A DNA stretch of 64,000 nucleotides from Antedon mediterranea (lineage: Eukaryota > Echinodermata > Crinoidea > Comatulida > Antedonidae). Where the stretch lies: assembly GCF_964355755.1 (NCBI RefSeq), contig NC_092672.1, positions 6,138,001 through 6,202,000 of the forward strand, written 5' to 3'. The notes under the pieces were generated by a model, which was not told the origin of the DNA, did not search any database, and saw only the letters and a list, made by a program, of their open reading frames with translations. The translations under genes and the position numbers were made by a program. Below, piece after piece: positions 2,590 to 62,595 of the stretch. How positions within the stretch are numbered: position 1 is the stretch's first letter; the number at the start of each line of letters is the position of its first letter.

Positions 2590-5500
2590 CTAAGAAGACA
2601 AAGAAAGTATACATATATATTAATTACAAAACCGGCTTTTTAAACCACTTATATAGTGGAGATTATAATGCAATGTTATGAGAATAAATATATATGATCA
2701 CATATATAGGAAGAAGGGAGATAGGAAGGACGGGAGGGAAAGAGGAAGGAGGGAGAGAAGAAGGAGGGAGAGAAGAAGGAGGAAGAGAGGAAGGAGGGAG
2801 AGAAGGAGGGAGAGGAGGGAGAGAGGAAGGAGAAAGAGAGGAAGGAGAAAGAGAGGAGGGAGAAAAGGAGGGAGAGGAAGAAGAAAGAGAGGAAGGAGGG
2901 AGGGAGAGAGGAAAGAGAAAGTGAGGAAGAAGGCAGGGAGAGAGGAAGGAGAAAGAGAGGAAGGAGGGAGGGAGAAAGGAAGGAGAAAGAGAAGAAGGAG
3001 GGAGAGAGCAAGGAGAAAGAGAGTAAGGAGGAAGGGAGAGAGGAAGGAGGGAGAGAGGAAGGGGTGGTGTTGTTGAGTGAATGATATAATAATAACCAGG
3101 GGTGTCATTTTCAGCCAGCTTTGGCCTCTCGAATGTTCATTTTAAAAACATGGTCTATTAATAAAATTAAAAACTCTCACATTTTGTCTTCTACATTCTT
3201 TAACTGTTCTTTTTCATTATTATTCTTGTCTTGCGTATCTTTCAATTCTTCTTTATATTTCTCTAACTCTTGTTTAACTGAGTTGATTGTTTCCGCTTGT
3301 GTCTTCAGTGTTTCTTCATGGTCTGTATTTACTTTCTTTAATGAGTCTCTTTCAGTTGTCAGTTCAGACAATGAAATATTAATTTTCTCATTTGCCTTTA
3401 TTGCCTAAAATGACAACAAAATAATATCATGTTTAAACTCCCAAAAACCAGACTTCTTCATGTTCCATTTCTTTATTTTCCTACTCAAAAATGCACTATG
3501 AAAACCACAATACTTAATTTTTGTGTGGCCACCATAGAGTTATTACACACCATAGAGTTATTACATCACAACTAGAGAGTTATTACATCACACACCATAG
3601 AGTTATTACATCACAACTAGAGTTAACTGCTCTGTAACTGATGAGTACCATGGAGAGGGACCATCAAATATGGCTGCATCACATCAGCAAACTAAATTCT
3701 GCAGTACCTACAGTGATCATATAAGGTCAAAGTTCACAGAATCTATACTCTACCTCATTTTTAGCATTGACTTCACTTTCTATCTGTTTCATTATCTCCT
3801 CTTGTTTCCTATTTTTTTCTTGTTCTGAAGAGCTGGAGTTTTCTAACAATGCTTCTAATCTTTGCACTTTTTGAAGTGACTGTTCATTTTCAGATTTCAT
3901 CTTCTCATTGTCACCTTGCAAATCTTCAAACTTTAACTGCATTTCTTCTAATTCAAACTAATAAAAGCAAAAAGTATATTATTATATATATTTGAGTGGG
4001 TGAGTGAAACATCTAGCTCATGTGTACTAGTACATCTTTTAGACAAGTAGGGGGTTACCCCGGTGTACTAGTACACACACAGCCACCGTCACTCACACAT
4101 ACTGAGCAATGTGGGAGAACAGGAGTTTACTACTGAACAACCTTCCCAGTATTTAGAATAAAGAAATAAAAATATAATAAAATATGCCAACTTTCATACA
4201 GAACTAATTACAGGTGATAATCTTGCATCTTTCACTGTATAACACATGATATGTTAAATAACATTGTAGAAAAAATCTTTTATAATATGATGGATTTGTC
4301 GTAGGTTGAAGTGGATTGATTCAAAAGAATCTTTTAAAAATAAAACAAACATAAAATTATAAAGATGCACAACAACTTGAATAAAAGAATTTACCTCTAG
4401 TTCTGATTTCTTTTGCTTAATGTCATCTAAAGTTGATGCGATACTTTGTTTCTCTTGTGACAATGCATCTTTCACAGACTCCTTCTCCAAGATTATCTCC
4501 TTCAACTTGGCAACTTCTTCAACATGCTGTTTCTTGATCTCTTCTTCCAGTAACTGCGCCTCATCTTGCAGATCCGTGATTTTAACCTTGCTTTCCTGTA
4601 ATTCTTTTTGCTGAGAGTTGATAGTATGGTAGAAAAAAAAGAAAGCAAACTTAAAATAAAAAACTGGTGTTATGGCAGAAGCACAAAAAGCACGAAAGCA
4701 AAAACAAAATCATGTGACAATGACAATGTTAGTATAATTCAGTGAAAAACTAAAAAATAAAAAAACAAATATAATATCTTACAACAGAAAGATTAAGATG
4801 AAACCATTAATAAATAAGCTTTAAATAAAAACCAGTGTAAAGAAAAACAATGAAACCACAACAAACATTTAGATACAAAAATTAACTATAAAAATGTCTG
4901 GTGAAGAGACTAATTATAAGTCTGGTGCAGAGATGCCTAATGTTTACACTTGGTAACCAGGGACATCAACACAGTACAGATCTAAATAAATTGTACAGAG
5001 GTTTGGTTGAAATGTTTCATTTGATGTTGAAAAAATGATGAACTGATCACACACACCAAAAATGTACAAAGGTAACAAAAAGAAAAGTTAAAAAATATAA
5101 AATACTGTACTCAAAACAGAAAAAAATATACTTGTGTTACACAAATGAGAAATATTTTCTATACATTTTGTGTACAGAAAAATAAAAACACAGAAACAAA
5201 AAAAACTAATTTTGATTAACATTTCAAAGAGATCCAAATAAAATTGGAATATGAATGTTAAAGTATTAATTTTTGTTTCAGATTTAGCTAATATGATGTC
5301 GATATGATTTAGGTTTAAGGTCCAATTTCCAGTGTTCATTTGTTGGTATATAAAACAGTTTCTTGGTCATGTATGTCTGTAAACTAACTAAATAAAAATG
5401 AAACCAAATGTTTGAACAACAAATACCAGTAAATTTATTACATACATCTTATTTTTGTTTATTTATAGTATGTCTCACAAAAACTTACATACTCAAGCTC

Positions 5501-6871
5501 AGTTGGATAAAATTTTACAACTTTTAAAAAATTCTAAAACAATATTTAGCAGGCATATATATATATACACACAATTATCTATAATAACAAATCAATATCA
5601 ATCAATAACAACAAATCAATATCAATCAATAATAGCAAATCAATATCAATCAATATTAATAATAGCAAATCAATATCTGGAAAGTTAGGACAGATGATGC
5701 ATTAGAAAATGTTGAATTTCAACCAATATGATTTTGCTAAAATTCTGTATTATATTTGAAGTTCTATTATGAAATTATTAATGATAAATTTACAAATCAT
5801 ATAAAACTGAAAGTATTGTAAAATTATGGATACATCGTTGAACAAATTCTGAAACCTTTATACCTCATACACACTCAAGCTCGTAACCAGGGGCAACTTT
5901 ACTGAAATACCTTTTTCAAACTATTAGTTGTGGAAGTGATGGTAAATAGGCCTAGCCTAGTTAGCTGATTTTGTACCCTTTTGTAGAAAAAATAAGCCAC
6001 TTTGGTTACGAGCTTGACACTAATTATTAATTACTGTATCATAAATACACATTTTGTTTTTAAAGTTAGGAAAAAAAATAAAGTATTACATTTCTACTCA
6101 GAAGACATTTAATTTTAAAACCTTATCTAAATTTGATTCCTAAAAAGGCATCTAATATTTTATGAATGATAAACATACACATATGAAAGTCACAAAAACA
6201 TCTCGTCCTTCATTTAACAATAGCAATATGCACATGCTATATATAACTTCTGACAAAATCCATTTAATGCTATCTAATATAATAACCATCAATAATTGTA
6301 TAATTTAAAACATAGCATGCATTAAAAAAAAAGAAAACTGCCAGATTTATTTTTAATAAAAGTTTTAATAACTGCAAGTATTATAAATGCTTAATGTAAT
6401 AAAAGCATACGCTGAGCCTGTATGATGGATATGTCATTGTGGGTAGTGTATTGTTTTTTTGTTTATTAATATTATATAGGATCTTATCTAGGATAATGAT
6501 GATGATGATTATCTTAATGATGATGATGGTGATGATGTCAGATGATTATAAGCCGATGATGATGATGATGGTGATGATGTCAGATGATGATAGTGGTGAT
6601 GATAATGATGCAAGATGATGATGATGATTATGAGCAGATGATGGTGAGCCGATGATGATGATTATAAGCCGATGATGATGATGGTGATGATGTCAGATGA
6701 TGATGATAATGTAAGATGATGATGATGATGATTATGAGCAGATGATGTTGAGCCGATGATGGTGATAATGATGATGATGATGATGAGCTGATGATGATGA
6801 TGAGCTGATAATGATGATGAGCTGATGATGGTGATAATGATGATGATGATGATGAGCTGATGATGGTGATA

Positions 6872-21900: not shown

Positions 21901-24900
21901 ATTTAATGTATGCATTGCAACCTATGACATGATGCAACTATAGATGTGTTTATAATCAAATCTATTTCAGATATGTAGAAAGACTATGTATTGGTGGTTC
22001 ATATTGAACATACATTGCAAGTTAAATTGTGAAATGACGCAACTATAGATAGAGTGTATGCGTGTTTGTAATAAAATGTATTAATTAATTACATGTACCA
22101 GTATGTAGAATATCTTAATATGCATCGTTTGAACAAATTTTAATGCAATTTGCATAATGTAAATGATTATTATGATGAATAGTTTTTTTTCCTCATTTTT
22201 ATGTCTAGAAAATGTGTGTCCACATGTAAACATGAAGATATGTCAGGTGTATGTTATCATATATAATAATGTTTTAAAAGTATGTATTACATATTCATGT
22301 ACAGCATTATGTTATGTATTTAGTATAGCATTCATGTGTAATATAAGCATTCATGTATGCATGTGGTCCTATACTAAATATGCATATGCAAACATTTACA
22401 TATAATGAATATTCGCATCATGAATATTCATACCTGATTATCGGGCATTGAACTAGAACCGACGGTGGGCGCTGACGAGGGTACAACTGGCTCGGCTAAA
22501 TCACTGGCTGACGCGCCAGCATCGATATCTAAGTCGTCCTAATAAAGAACACCAATGCACATAAAATATTGGAACAGAAAAGTGAAGAAAAAAAATCTAA
22601 ATGGTAAAAACAAAATATAATATCACTGGTTGATGATAAACAAAAATTAAAGAATAAACAGACACAAAATAAAATTACAACTTTAAGGTTACACCAATTT
22701 ACAATAAGAAAGAAAGTTGAACCACAAAAAGAAATACTATGTTAAAAAATATTTACTTCTTGGTACAGAAGAGTCATTTAAAAAACTTAAAATTGAAAGA
22801 ACTTGTTAGGAATGGAAGCAATAAAAATGTGTTTTAATTTGAAAAATGAAAATTGAAATGTATCTTTAAAAATAATAATAAAAATATATAAAAAGCATGG
22901 TTTAGTTTTTAAAAATAAATATCAGCCATGCAGTGCTTTGTGTACATTTAGTTAATATACAATATTGCACGTACCTGTGAGCCAAGTTTACGCGGCGTTT
23001 CTAATGTTCTAGGGGAACCAGGATCTGTCGTTGAGGACCGTGCAAGGCTTCTCGACACGCTTGACGTTGATCCTATAGAGCTGATGGAGCTGTTGCTGTT
23101 ACTACGTTTATCGCGCATCAAACCGCTACCATCTTTGGTTTTGGCACCGGTACCACGCACCTTAGTAACCTTGTGTACAGGAGCAAATAGGCCATGCTTT
23201 GGTTTGCATTGAAAATACCTGAAAAGGAGAACATTTAGAAATTGGAGTAGATTAACACTAATTATAGTATAACTCCTTCAGGTCAAAGTGTTTCCTTAAA
23301 ACATATACATATAAACATATGCCTTGTTCATTTCACATGAAAATGTTCCTTTAATAGGGATGTCCCTTTAATAAGGGTGTTCCTTGAATAGGGATTTGCT
23401 GTAGTGTTAAAACATATATTGCCCCTTGTTTATTTCACAAGTGTCCCTTTAATAGGGAATACAGTATGAGTATTTCGAGGGAAGGCTTCTATAGTGCCCA
23501 CTTCAAACTTGTGATACCTTTACCTTGTTCCTACCAAAGCACTATTGGTATGTGTAATATGTAATAAAATCTATTCAAGATACGTAGAAAAAGTATGTCT
23601 TAGTGACTCGTATTATTGAACATACACATTGCAAGTTAAATTGTGATACATTTTGTTTACCTTGTTCCTGCCACAGCACCATTATTTTTACCCTGTTCGT
23701 CATCCAACTCAACTCCCGCCCAGTCTCCTTTGGCAAATTCTGTCGTTCCGATGTACCGTAGCGTTCCAAGCTTTGTACCGCTTACAAGCACACGATCTCC
23801 AACCTTTACACAATAAGTAACAAAGTATGCTTTTTACAAGTGTATTTTTGAAATGTATTTAACCATACATACAATACATGCTGGTGTGTGTGTGTGAAAC
23901 AATATAAACTAAACGTGTAGGAGTTTCGTATTAATGTCAATATCTCGTAATGATGGTTAATGTAATAATAACATATACAGTACAGAAAGAAAATACTGCA
24001 ACTTTTCCTATGCAGTAGCTTCGTAGATAGAACGTAGGCTACGTTGTTGGCTTTGTAGGTTACATTGGCTTCGTAAACTCAATAAACAACATTCAATGAG
24101 CTACGTTCTGAACTTCGTAGGGAGTTCGTAACCCAAATAAACAACCCTACCTACGATGTTCTTAGTGAAGTATGTTATTATGTTTTTGTAATAAGTGCAG
24201 CAAACTAATCCATTAGGGTAAAGGTGTACATGCTCGCCATTATACACAGAGACAACACAGAGTTCTTAAACTTAAATTTGTCAATGCTTACCTTAAGTCC
24301 CATATGTTCAGGTGTGTGGTCATTCGTTGGTGTGCTGAGAGCCGCGGCCTGGGCAGCCGTCGTCGGAAGCTTACTAAGTGACCTACTGGATGAGGCTCTG
24401 GTCCCCATACGTGGTGTGTTAGGTATCACATTGGGCCTAGCTTTTGTCTTTCCCCTTTCTCTCATTAATTTTTCCGGTTTAACAAATACGCCCTTCTTAG
24501 GCTCGCACTGAAAGTAGCGTACACCATTAACAGAACCGTCATTCTTCCCCACCGCTTCATCCAATACGCAACCGGCCCACTGACCAGTTGCAAATTTAGT
24601 CTCACCCAAAAACTGTATATATCCATGTTTATCACCTCCAACGACAACTCTTTCACCGATGATAAAACTGTCTCGAGATCCGGTACTATCACCGCTTTCA
24701 GAGTTAGTTCGTACTAATTTATCTGCGTACTTAGATGCGTCGCTTGCACGCATCCCAGCTGCTCTTGCAGATTGAGCCACGGCATCTATGGTAAACAGAT
24801 ACAAAAGTTATTTCTACAGTATGTTAAGGAATTCCAGTCAATTACAGACTTCTATTTAGGACTCATTACTCTAAAAGGGTCTTACGTGACAAGATTTTTT

Positions 24901-39800: not shown

Positions 39801-40390
39801 TACAGATTTTTCCAATTAGCTTTATTGAAACAACTTATCCAATCCTAATCTTTACAATATTGCCCTAACACTATAACTACGTTATTCATGTGATAGTAGG
39901 TTTTCATATAAATAGTGCACTGCATGTTTCGCTGACAAATCTCAATTACTGTCCATCATTATACTAATTAATGTTAATTAGCATGCTAAGTGTGTTGCAC
40001 TGACTTGCTGGATCTAATTTCCACATTTAACCAGTTAATTGGAAATTGTCCACGACTGCTGATGGCAAAAAAACCAAAACAGGAATCTACTGAATAAATT
40101 TACCGCATATGACAGTAATTTCACACAAAAATTATCACTTTCAAGATCTGAATTTATTCCCCTTCCCACCTATTAATAATTATACTCGGTGATGATTATC
40201 CTAGAAATTAAAAAAAAATGTAATACATCCACCATTCAGTCAGAAGTTGCATACTGTAATGCAAGTCATAAATTCGAAAATCTCAAGCAAAACGTATACA
40301 TCATCGCCGTGTTGGTCGTTTATTGTTTGTCATCCCTTAACTTAAATTACAACAAAAAACAAGACATCTAAAAAATAATGTATTGAGTAC

Positions 40391-43300
40391 GGGTGTGTCG
40401 AAAGCGAAGACCTCGAAAGCGAAGATCGAAGACCGAAGACCTCGAAAGCGAAGACCCTACGAAATGGTAGTGTACACAAAATCCGACCAAAATCACACAA
40501 AATCGATGATAACACCTTGAATTTACAGGTTCTAAAAAAATATTTCGATTTTAATCGTTATGTTATCAAAAAACATGACTTTATATATGAACAAGCTCAC
40601 TTGTTTTCGCCATGGAGTTAATATGTGATATGGATTTACGAACAAACACATCACGCTATTTGCAAGGCGACGGACGCACAAGAAGGACATCGCACAGAGC
40701 ATTGAATTGAATGCAATATTAAGTCACTTGTTCCGATAACTTTGTAGCACACGTCGCCTACAATTTTAAACCATAGCCAATTGTATAAAAGTATAGAAAT
40801 AAACTACAGTAAGTAAATTGTAAGAAGTAAAGGATGGCGATAGGCCTATTTAGGCTTATTTTAGAGCCTATAAGCCTATCCGTATCATATAGATTTTACA
40901 CTTGTTTTTAAAAATGTTATACGCATGAATACAACTTGGAGATCCATTTTTTTTTTTGCATTTAAATATTATTATGTTGATGTATGTTTATTATCTATAA
41001 TATTTGCCTATTGTCTAAATGTATGAATAAATACAATAATATATTTATTTTCCTTTAGTTATTCTGTATAGTATTTAAAACTTTTACATTTTCCCCATTG
41101 TAGTCAGTATTACTGATTTAATTATTCGCCAGTTCAAAAATGTTTTTTCTAGTGTATTCATAATGGACAAATAATATTATCAGTATCGGTTAGTGTGGTT
41201 GGTGAAGCGACAGTACTATGTAAAGAAAAAAAAAGTAAAAAGTAAAATAAATATTTCATTAACAAACGAAAACATCCTGCCGCAACGTATCGTATTGACG
41301 CGCGCAACATAAGGTTAAGAAAATACTCTTCTATCTATTTTGCATTCCCTCTTACGATGAGAATCATGATGAACGTAAAGCAGAAACGGTGTTGAACACG
41401 TCGGTTCCCACTTATGATGACACGCAAGTTTGCACTTTGCGTCGATCTGGAAACTAATTCCAGCTCTTAAAATATTTCCCGGGCAAAATTTGACAGAATA
41501 TATTCAAATTATGATTTGACAAAAAGCTAAAAAGAACGAACGATAGGCATCCGCGTTCTGCAAATTTTGGTTATAAATCGATCGTTTCATGCGACATATC
41601 ATCAGTTTCACAGCTTCCATAATTCCGAATAACATTTAATTAAGCCATTATGTCAACGTTCACAAAGACAAAAGCAATTCAAATCAAAGATTGAAATACA
41701 AAATATTCGTTCCAAAATAAAGTTGCCGATTTTGTTACGGTTGCAATGTGATTAGTGACGATAGTGTGTTCACGTTTAATATATTTTTCAAGATTAAAAC
41801 GGGTGTTTATTCAAATCGGTATTACGTTTACCGACACTGTCAAAAGACATGTTTAATGAAGTCCCAGTTCCGCCAACCACAATTGTCCTCATCATCGAAT
41901 AAGAATAAGTTTTCAAGCATTGCCCGTGGTGAATACAAAAAGAGATACTCTCTATAAATCTTTATTAAGTGATGGTGAATGTTTATCGGGCTTAACCACT
42001 CTAACCCCCAACCTTCTATCTCACAGGCTTGTGGATGAGACGACTATTCAACAGTCTCCCGATTGTTGACGTCCCGCTTCTAAATGTTTGCATCCCTGCC
42101 ATGAGTCTCCATTAACAAAAGAAAATATAAATTTTAAAAAATTAAAGAAACAGGTTACCGGTTGTGTATAATGACCATTTAAATATAGAATTGACACTAC
42201 ACAAACAAATCTAACAGAATCATACTATTATAACGGGTTAACGATCAAGCAAAATTTTCAGAGGGTGATGTCTATCTATATTTTTGACTTTGACAATACA
42301 AAGATATAAAATAAAGTTCCGTTAGTTCACGGTAAGCTCTTGGGACGAACTGTCATTGGCCCGGGAAATATTTTAAGAGCTGAAATTGGTTTTCAGATCG
42401 AAGCAAAGTGCGCCGTAAGGAAATAACCTTGCGTGTCATCACAAGTGGGAACCGATGTGTTCAACACCGTTTCTGCTTTATTACGTTCATCATACGATCC
42501 GATTAAGAGGGGATGCAAAATAGATAGAAGGTGGATAGATAGATTTTCTGTTGCGCGCGTGAACGTTGCGGCAGATTTTTTTCTGTTTAGTGGTGAAATA
42601 TTTATTTTCCTTTTTACATTTTTCTTTACCTAGTACCGGTACCACACTAAATATTCTGATACTGATATATTATTTGTCTATTATGAATACATTAGAAAAC
42701 ATTTTGAAACTGGCGATTAAGTAAAATAGCAATAGTATACAATATGAATCAAAGATCTTATATACTAAGATATAATAATAAGATCTTTGCTACAATGGTG
42801 AAAATGTAAAAGTTTAAATACAATACAGGAAAATGAATATCTTATTGTATTTATTCATATATTTAGATAATAAACAATAGAAACAGGCAAATATTGTAGA
42901 TAAAAAACACATAGCAACATATTTAAATGCAAAAAAGATCTCTGTAAATTGTATTCACACGTAACATTTTTAAAAGCAAGTGTAAAATCAAAATACGGAC
43001 ACCTTTTATATAGGCTCTATAAGCCTAAATAAGCCTATCGCCATCCTTTACTTTTCTATACTTTTCTATACAATTGGCTATGGTTTTAAATTGTAGGCGA
43101 CGTGTGCTACAAAGTTATCGGAACAAGTGACTTAATATTGCATTCAATTCAATGCTCTGTGCGATGCACTTCTTGTGCGTCCGTCGCCTTGCAAATAGCG
43201 CGATGTGTTTGTTCGTAAAACCATATCACATATTAACTCCATTGGCGAAAACGCGTGAGCTTGTTCATAGATAAAGTCATGATTTTTGATATAAATATAA

Positions 43301-43455
43301 CGATTAAAATCAAATTTTTTTTTCAGGATCTGTAAATTCAAGGTGTTATCACGATTTTGGTCGGATTTTGTGCACACTACCATTTCGTAGGTCTTCGCTT
43401 TCGAGGTCTTCGGTCTTCGATCTTCGCTTTCGAGGTCTTCGCTTTCGACACACCC
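40391..43455. mobile_element. TU-like foldback transposon with 1.1-kb inverted repeats
   Basis: The left arm 40391-41484 and the right arm 42359-43455 are imperfect reverse complements (about 1.1 kb each) around an 874-bp centre. Tips are GGGTGTGTCGAAAGC and GCTTTCGACACACCC. The outermost part of each arm is a run of roughly 15-bp units (TCGAAAGCGAAGACC). An 11-bp direct repeat GTATTGAGTAC flanks the element (40380-40390 and 43456-43466); if the tips are counted as CGGGTG/CACCCG it is 9 bp. No transposase is encoded, so the copy is non-autonomous. It sits in the inferred 5' UTR intron of CLIP. Long arms with tandem outer repeats recall the sea-urchin TU family; duplication length would also fit Mutator-like elements. 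Confidence 0.9.
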
Positions 43456-43498
43456 GTATTGAGTACACCTCCTTAGCTCTGAGATAGCATGCTCCTAT

Positions 43499-60060: not shown

Positions 60061-62595
60061 ATGTCAACTGGCAAACAAAACTCTAGCAATATGGCAGAAG
60101 GCGGCAGCGTTAGTTCATTCGGAAAACATTACAATAATAGTGGAGATGAGTTAAGTAAATTTGGGTCTGTTTATTCGTCGACAACTGGTTCCCTTAGCAG
60201 CAGATATTCTGAACTATCCAGAATAGATATGGCGTCAAGTGACGATGAGGAGGATTCGGCTTATAAATCAACGTTAGACGGGAAACCAATCGTGTTTATG
60301 AATCCTATTGAAGAAAAATACAGATGTGTGTCATGTCAGCAAATACTTGTGTTTCCAGTCTTATTGGAAGACTGCGGACATCGATGCTGTTCCTCGTGTT
60401 TGCCGCAGCTTTTGAGGTAGGCCTAATTATCGCCATTTTCCCTCCCAAAATCTTCCTCTGTTTGCCTCAACTTTTAAGGTATACAGTACCAGTTAACTCA
60501 CCATTTTCCTCCCTGCCCAAAATCTCCTTCTGTGTAATGCGTTTTTCTTTCCTAGCCTTTATAGAAGATGGCCAAACTTCCTTTCCTTGCATTAATTAAA
60601 CTAGTGCTCTTTACTCGATCGTGCACTCTTAATGTCTGCCTCTGTCTTTCTGATGTTGTCTACATTGTAATACAATCACAAATTAGTGACATGTACAAAA
60701 TAATTTTCCCAAAAAATAGAAGCTCTGTCTAACTATCAAACTTTATGTGAAAACAAAAATGTGATGTGCCCATATATGAACACGATGACATCATATCACC
60801 ACCATATGGGCACATCACACTTTTTTGGTCAAACTAATTTGATAGTGTAGACAGAGCTTTAGAAATGTATTTCATATCTTTCAGAGCGTCCCAGAAGTGT
60901 CCGATTGATGACCAGAGTTTAACGCGCGATAGAGTGTACGTGGATTGTGTGTTTGGTCAAGAGATTGACATTCAAAAAGTGAAATGTGTAAACCACGCCA
61001 GAAGCTGCCAATGGACTGGTATACTTGGCCAATCAAAGGTAATATCTCATAAGAGCATTGGGCACAGTGGCGGGTCCAGGATTTATTAAAGTGCTAAACT
61101 TAAGAGAGTTCTATTTTTCGCACTGTCCTTTCCTGCCCAGACGGTGGGGTTGGTGGTGGTGGTGGTGGTGGTGGTGATAGGTTTTTCTTTTCCAAATAAA
61201 TAATCGAAGTTGTTTTACCATAATGGTTCCGAAAACGCTCGAAATTTTAAAAACAACACGACCACTTTACAATTGTACCCATATCAATCACGTACCATTT
61301 AGTTAGCTTAATCTCTGTCTACCAAATAAAACTTTATGCGAGAAAAAATATGTGATGTGCCCATATATGAATATGATCATATCATATCACTACCATATTT
61401 GGGCATATATAACTACCGTATTTGGGCACATCACACTTGTTTGATAGTGTATAAACAGAGTGATACTTTCCATCATATATAATAAAAACAGGTTCTCCAT
61501 ATCGTGGCTCGTATCGTTGATTCGTTTGACTTTGTATAACATTACGCCTATTATCAAACAGCTCCTTATTTCTATGCAAGGAGGCACTAATGTATAAAAC
61601 GAATGTGTTTTTTAATAGGATCACCTCAAGCACTGTCTTTACGTGTTGATAGAATGCCCAAATGTATGCGGTGCCAGTATGGAAAAAATCTTCATGGAGA
61701 ACCACTTAAAAGAGGACTGTCACAAAAGAATGATCACGTGCGAATTCTGTAGCAAGTGCATATTCCACAAAGACGAGATTTACCATTACAATATCTGTCC
61801 AAACTTCTTGGTACATTGTCCAAACGGATGTGACGTCAATACCGAGTACTTAAGGCACAACATCGATAAACATCTTAATACCAATTGTCCTTTAGAGGTT
61901 ATTGAGTGCGAGTTTGCAGGATTTGGCTGCACATTCACAGTATGTACTTCTTGTGTTTTATTATGAATAAGCACATTGTAAACATGGAAAATTGGCTTCG
62001 CGCGAATCGAAAGCGCAAGCTTATACGCATGCGTATTCGTGTTCCATCCTCCAAATCACTCTCTATATTCATGCGTATAATCATAGTCAATAGAAAGTAT
62101 CTGACGCTGGTTCCTATAGGTTCGCAAATAGAAAGCTTCCTATATATTTACTGTATTTTCATATATTACTATTATTGTTGCAGTCAATTCGTTCAGAAAT
62201 GCGTTACCACATGACGGACAACACGTCAATGAACAACCATGTTGCTATGATCGGAGAGAAGATTGTTTCACAGAAAATTATAATTGACGTCCACGGCGTT
62301 AATCTGGAGGATGGCACAGACTCTCTCCAAACCTGCGTAGATAAGGTGCAAGACCTCGAGAAGATGTTTGGATCTCACTTAGTATGGAAAATCAACAATT
62401 ATGCGGAGCGCGTCCAAGATGCAAAGATTGCCAAGAAGACGACCATATTTAGCCCGCCATTTCTTACAGGAAGACATGGTTACAAACTTTCTATGTCTGC
62501 CTGTCTAAATGGTGACGGAAAGGGTAAGGATATTCAGACAATTTAGAGAAGTGATCTGCGCGAGTGAAACTAATATTGTTACATAAAACTAAAAA

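Follow-up and report, generated by a model that had tools for sequence, protein, structure and literature searches.

A non-coding foldback transposon of a multicopy family with conserved tip arrays in the crinoid Antedon mediterranea

Introduction

Long inverted repeats flanked by a short direct repeat raise the question of whether the palindrome is a transposon and, if so, to which family it belongs and which enzyme could move it. One such palindrome, of approximately 3 kb, is found in the window analysed here, i.e. the whole stretch of 64,000 nucleotides of contig NC_092672.1 of A. mediterranea. It lies between a CAP-Gly exon (minus strand, 24208-24807, approximately 15.6 kb from the element) and an open reading frame for a MATH domain (plus strand, 62094-62543); elsewhere in the window, positions 1708-2187 hold an open frame built largely of a repeated SDIPKYG unit. 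The placement of the element in a 5' UTR intron of CLIP, made in the initial annotation, is a conjecture.

Structure of the element

The element is 3065 bp long (40391-43455), with GTATTGAGTAC abutting each end, and is composed of the following parts.

40380-40390, plus strand: left copy of the target-site duplication, GTATTGAGTAC (duplication reads and flank search)
40391-40456, plus strand: left tip, a 66-bp array of approximately four units related to TCGAAAGCGAAGACC, putative transposase binding zone
40391-41487, plus strand: left arm, approximately 1097 bp (arm alignment)
41488-42355, no strand: centre, approximately 868 bp, with stop-to-stop frames of at most 78 amino acids (alignment and open reading frame list)
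42356-43455, minus strand: right arm, approximately 1100 bp (arm alignment)
43391-43455, minus strand: right tip array, 65 bp (tip reads)
43456-43466, plus strand: right copy of the target-site duplication, GTATTGAGTAC (duplication reads and flank search)

The two arms are collinear in inverted orientation, the left one reaching approximately 41487 and the right one starting at approximately 42356. Their self-alignment, a check proposed in the initial annotation, gives 918 matches and 65 mismatches, i.e. 93.4% identity over ungapped columns, or 84% when gaps are counted (918 of 1095 positions), in agreement with the palindrome with arms of approximately 1.1 kb that had been described. The exact 11-bp flanking duplication and the structural completeness of the copy (both tips, both arms and a duplication on each side) are likewise confirmed. 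Other features of that description need to be adjusted: an unpaired centre is present, but it measures approximately 868 rather than 874 bp; tandem units with a period of 15 do occupy the outer ends of the arms, but over just 66 bp (approximately four units) and with no extended domain; and the centre is not freely variable, as copies L001, L005, L104 and L009 can be aligned across it.

No stop-to-stop frame wholly internal to the element exceeds 78 amino acids, and the frames crossing its borders reach 80 (left) and 116 (right) amino acids, the latter yielding no match in a Pfam scan at 0.1. When folded as RNA, the plus strand of the element reaches -1534 kcal/mol with 928 arm-to-arm pairs and the minus strand -1527 kcal/mol with 916, as compared with -626 and -648 kcal/mol and 21 and 25 such pairs for two neighbouring stretches of equal length. 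The long terminal inverted repeats that are a common, if not universal, trait of the Mutator superfamily are present in the element.

Family copies and target-site duplication

The genome search with the tip that had been suggested recovers other copies: the 22-bp tip is found genome-wide at 208 + 213 places with up to three mismatches, and its reversed control at 0 + 0. A 120-base tip query gives at least 40 matches (40 of 206 candidates scored) and an arm query at least 52 (40 of 125 candidates scored). The closest copy among those seen, L009 on C1, matches the element at 3044 positions with 13 mismatches (99.6%, ungapped), besides 7 and 8 gap positions.

Forty-four copies, forming the part of the family that is readable at both ends, were inspected for target-site duplications. 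These are exact in 34 of the 44 (29 of 10 bp, three of 9 bp and two of 11 bp), as in the Mutator superfamily, where duplications of approximately 8-11 bp are a trait; six more copies have a duplication with one mismatch, and four (L057/058, L005, L010 and L018) have none. Mispaired flanks, used as a control at a length of at least 8 bp, give two exact and three one-mismatch repeats among 1892. Since L083/084 and L085/086 share flanks and represent one insertion, at most 43 of the 44 copies are independent. Taken by itself, the element would also be compatible with a duplication of 9, 7 or 5 bp, because GTA...TAC at its ends is self-complementary; the resulting candidate, a shorter duplication with a longer end, was rejected because the repeats of other copies abut GGG/CCC at 9-11 bp.

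Empty sites are available for two nested insertions (L004 inner and L008), in which removal of the element and of one duplication restores an uninterrupted sequence. The restored L004 inner site is found again in the arms of many other copies, with as many as 110 of its 110 bases matching, and that of L008 matches a CAC-family tip (73 of 73 bases in L035, L037, L038, L039 and L043), the latter case being weaker because the target is itself a tandem repeat. For the element in the window, a genome search with the joined flanks found no second or empty site elsewhere in the assembly; their sole match is the element's own site, where they align in two parts with an overlap of exactly 11 bp. The 3-kb palindrome is, thus, a real, structurally complete, non-coding transposon of a multicopy family.

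The divergence of the arms was rejected as a means of dating the insertion, because the window arms pair one-to-one with the arms of other copies. In 11 of 13 further copies (the exceptions being L005 and L012), the two window arms have different arms of the copy as their nearer match, and in a second comparison all 13 fit, some by margins below one point. The divergence of the arms, therefore, predates the spread of the copies.

Some copies are of interest for their surroundings or contents. Flanks are identical or inverted-identical at C9:13532609 and C9:13549363, and on C1 near 2.9-3.0 Mb and 9.0 Mb, which suggests segmental duplications. A 12.5-kb family copy with an exact 10-bp duplication contains a large inverted array with a period of approximately 100 bp (L103:2433-9454).

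The tip array and its conservation

The array, made of CGAAA(n4)AGACC-like units, is 66 bp long in 31 of the 37 tips read, 65 bp in two, 22 bp in two, 59 bp in one and 37 bp in one; the tip-pair string of the family is GGGTGTnnCGAAA. Among 28 arms from 14 copies, the tip is variable at 11 of 66 columns and the remainder of the first kilobase at 421 of 810, in a sample biased by the fact that its 14 copies were found by their tip. This bias is answered by 40 arms retrieved with an inner-arm query, of which 36 carry the exact 22-bp tip, one carries it with one mismatch and three have no tip within 600 bp (in one of these, C6:31090202, several kilobases of other sequence separate the arm from its tip at 31094863), so that the conservation of the tip is upheld. 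The tip array is the best-conserved part of the family and likely represents the predicted binding site of the transposase. A search of the published literature with the tip strings gave, in the portions of text available, work on a diatom gene as the only match.

Related tip families

The tip form GGGTGTnnCGAAAnnnnAGACC is common to the element's family and to three further families with unlike interiors. The pattern GGGTGTSWCGAAARC occurs at 263 + 266 places and GGGTGTWNCGAAANNNNAGACC, with at most one mismatch, at 854 + 865 places (control, 0 + 1 in each case); the latter pattern should also cover the families of the former, and the places considered are the first 100 of each among the matches listed. 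Similarity beyond the tips is limited. For nine related loci (six CAC and three CTC), alignment with the element is confined to the tips and to no more than 77 bases, L042 giving none. When one GTC, two CAC, two CTC and one TTC element were compared with each other (E 0.001), between-family alignments covered at most 77, 51, 50, 37 or 29 bases, or were absent; the GTC and TTC elements gave no match at this threshold, and their link is, therefore, the tip form alone.

Duplications in the further tip families are mostly of 9-10 bp. Repeats of 10 bp are read by eye in all six CAC loci and in two of the three CTC loci, the third matching at 8 of 10 positions, and the TTC element in L044 has a 9-bp repeat, GTTAAAAAC. 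Ten further CAC copies comprise nine with an exact 10-bp duplication and one without, and correspond to eight independent copies, L126/L138 and L128/L140 being, by eye, the same sites inverted.

Other repeat structures were encountered at these loci. A 4.6-kb CAC-tip element (L035, C1:8728980-8733660) is a self-inverted repeat over its whole length (84%), with repeats approximately 88 bp apart in its interior. Arrays of GGACAACTACCCCC-type units, found at L044:1103-1582 and 5486-5793 and in L036, are possibly the ends of another repeat-tipped family.

Insertion targets

At least one of the hexamers TAGGCC, GGCCTA, CTAGGC or GCCTAG is present within 100 bp of 26 of 41 copies, and at least three near 16 of the 41 (a set that omits L004 inner, L008 and the duplicate L085). 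By comparison, of 302 stretches in the window, the element excluded, 28 have at least one hexamer and 1 has at least three; these counts are 96 and 10 among 686 stretches from 22 MULE loci, and 7 and 0 among 60 random stretches (sampled at 20 places, three at each). For the presence of at least one hexamer, p is 2e-13 versus the window and MULE loci together and 7e-8 versus the random stretches, values that overstate the case because the hexamers were chosen after viewing the flanks. Among 10 CAC copies, four have at least one hexamer (two of the four being one duplicated site) and none has three or more; as they do not differ from the long-armed family in this test (p 0.28), a bias specific to the latter is not demonstrated.

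With the tip form and the target bias in mind, it may tentatively be proposed, at somewhat less than even chances, that one transposase serves a clan of at least four families with little in common besides the tip GGGTGTnnCGAAAnnnnAGACC and its repeated core (approximately 860 elements if tips pair), that the array acts as a modular binding code, and that the long-armed family also homes to TAGGCC-rich DNA. If such a clan does share one enzyme, the tip alone defines what can be moved.

The search for a transposase

A search for an autonomous relative with the same tips, the existence of which had been envisaged, gave a negative result for the part of the genome examined. There are 55 places with a MULE domain at E 0.01, none of which is within 33 kb of 100 family tips among the matches listed (421 tips at up to three mismatches), the nearest being at 33.6 kb from these. 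Conversely, no family tip was found at the 22 of the 55 places that were read with limited flanks (138,522 bases in total). Ends with exact 8-11-bp duplications were not recovered at these 22 loci either, so that a 10-bp duplication habit of the genome's MULEs is not itself shown. In L029 and L044, tips of related families lie some kilobases from a MULE domain, those in L044 forming a separate element of 393 bp.

Long tip pairs (L001, L002/L003, L005, L017, L018 and L103-L105, L103 being part of its pair) contain extra sequence in which no transposase was seen with open reading frame cut-offs of 80-100 amino acids (45 in L018). A Pfam scan of nine chosen frames from L001, L003, L005, L017 and L018, together with one frame of the window, returned two matches, both below cut-off and to non-transposase domains; L002 has a frame that, by eye, resembles a reverse transcriptase.

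A different transposon, with a 9-bp repeat GTATTAATT read by eye, is inserted in the right arm of the family copy L018 (L018:4014-8600; C4:31770813-31775399). One of its exons is PHD-like, with E 0.0049 and a score of 17.3 bits where the Pfam cut-off is 24, and another is FLYWCH-like, with no Pfam match at 0.1. Within copies of the family, exons of these two kinds, a PHD-bearing transposase being a trait of Rehavkus and a FLYWCH + MULE transposase one of Phantom/Tm1, were found in this foreign insertion only. The FLYWCH-like exon occurs at 14 places (its own included) with at least 92% identity over at least 83 residues, and at seven places, by comparison of two lists, its relatives are separated from a MULE domain by no more than approximately 3 kb. 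As a lead to the family's transposase it was discarded, since it belongs to another transposon with a different tip.

Proposed mechanism and alternatives

There is direct support for the dispersal of copies with shared termini, for the duplication, for two empty sites within related sequence, for the conservation of the tip and for the recurrence of the tip form across families with unlike interiors. On these grounds, the element is very probably a non-autonomous foldback transposon of the Mutator type (MULE). A transposase, presumably a MULE, would be supplied in trans from elsewhere in the genome and would bind the 66-bp array at each tip, and a staggered cut at insertion would produce the target duplication of approximately 10 bp. 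That the duplication points to a Mutator-type enzyme acting in trans had been proposed for this locus, and the predominance of 10 bp across the copies read strengthens the suggestion. No transposase-bearing copy was found and, therefore, the assignment to the superfamily is based on the length of the duplications and the structure of the ends.

Alternatively, the partner could be not a canonical MULE but a Rehavkus-like relative of Mutator. Rehavkus is described with a PHD finger and a minisatellite (PMC6446971). Its duplication is of 9 bp. The family's tip arrays, and the PHD-like and FLYWCH-like exons of the insertion with a 9-bp repeat in L018, would be in line with such a partner. This is, however, improbable, as the L018 insertion has a different tip and nothing ties its protein to the family, the hosts of Rehavkus given in the same source are arthropods and annelids only, and the family's duplications are mostly of 10, not 9, bp.

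Even less probable is membership in the TU family of sea urchins, to which the element had been likened. TU elements of Strongylocentrotus are foldback transposons with 8-bp duplications and an extended, variable outer domain of 15-bp units. The inverted arms and the outer tandem units of period 15 are shared features, but 10-bp duplications dominate in the family and its outer zone is 66 bp long in 31 of 37 tips, by which it is set apart from TU on this general description.

Mobilization by a hAT transposase, earlier considered as an alternative, is hardly credible: the genome does contain 59 places with a hAT dimerization domain at E 0.001, but hAT transposons generate 8-bp duplications and an exact duplication of this length is found in none of the 44 copies, and the one such place noticed by inspection near a tip among the matches listed (C7:10512935) lies 1.3 kb outside it. 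That the inverted arms reflect a mere palindrome or inverted segmental duplication is refuted, for practical purposes, by the dispersed copies with the same ends, the duplications and the empty sites.

The target duplications, thus, place this foldback element with Mutator, and not with TU or hAT, and the dozens of readable copies, in which the tip array is the best-conserved part, open the function of the outer repeats of foldback transposons to direct testing.

Comparison with known systems

The family described here, very probably non-autonomous and of the Mutator type, is new but of a kind already known; its membership in sea-urchin TU is not demonstrated. The Tm1 family of root-knot nematodes (Mutator/foldback, PMC3169594), for which a Mutator-type enzyme has been proposed, resembles it in its inverted repeats of composite build, in which a unit (most often of 14 bp) is repeated, in its mostly transposase-less copies, in a duplication of 9 bp and in the similarity between the two repeats within an element, which averages 93.15% identity in Tm1. 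Tm1 differs in its 1-9 units, asymmetric 7-bp end motifs and known Phantom-type transposase gene, whereas in the element's family 31 of 37 tips carry an array of 66 bp, both ends have the same tip, the duplication is mostly of 10 bp and a transposase was not found. Tetris of Drosophila virilis (PMC4079207) is also a foldback element with long multi-domain arms and without conserved open reading frames, and was placed in Mutator from its 8-10-bp duplications and earlier suggestions of a foldback-Mutator link; it differs in its arms of up to 1,735 bp with at most three domains, and in being represented by three structurally complete copies. Finally, MuTAnT of Medicago (PMC4486113) is a Mutator-like family with an insertion preference for simple repeats; it favours TA microsatellites, whereas the element's family is found near TAGGCC-type DNA, a preference not separated from other causes.
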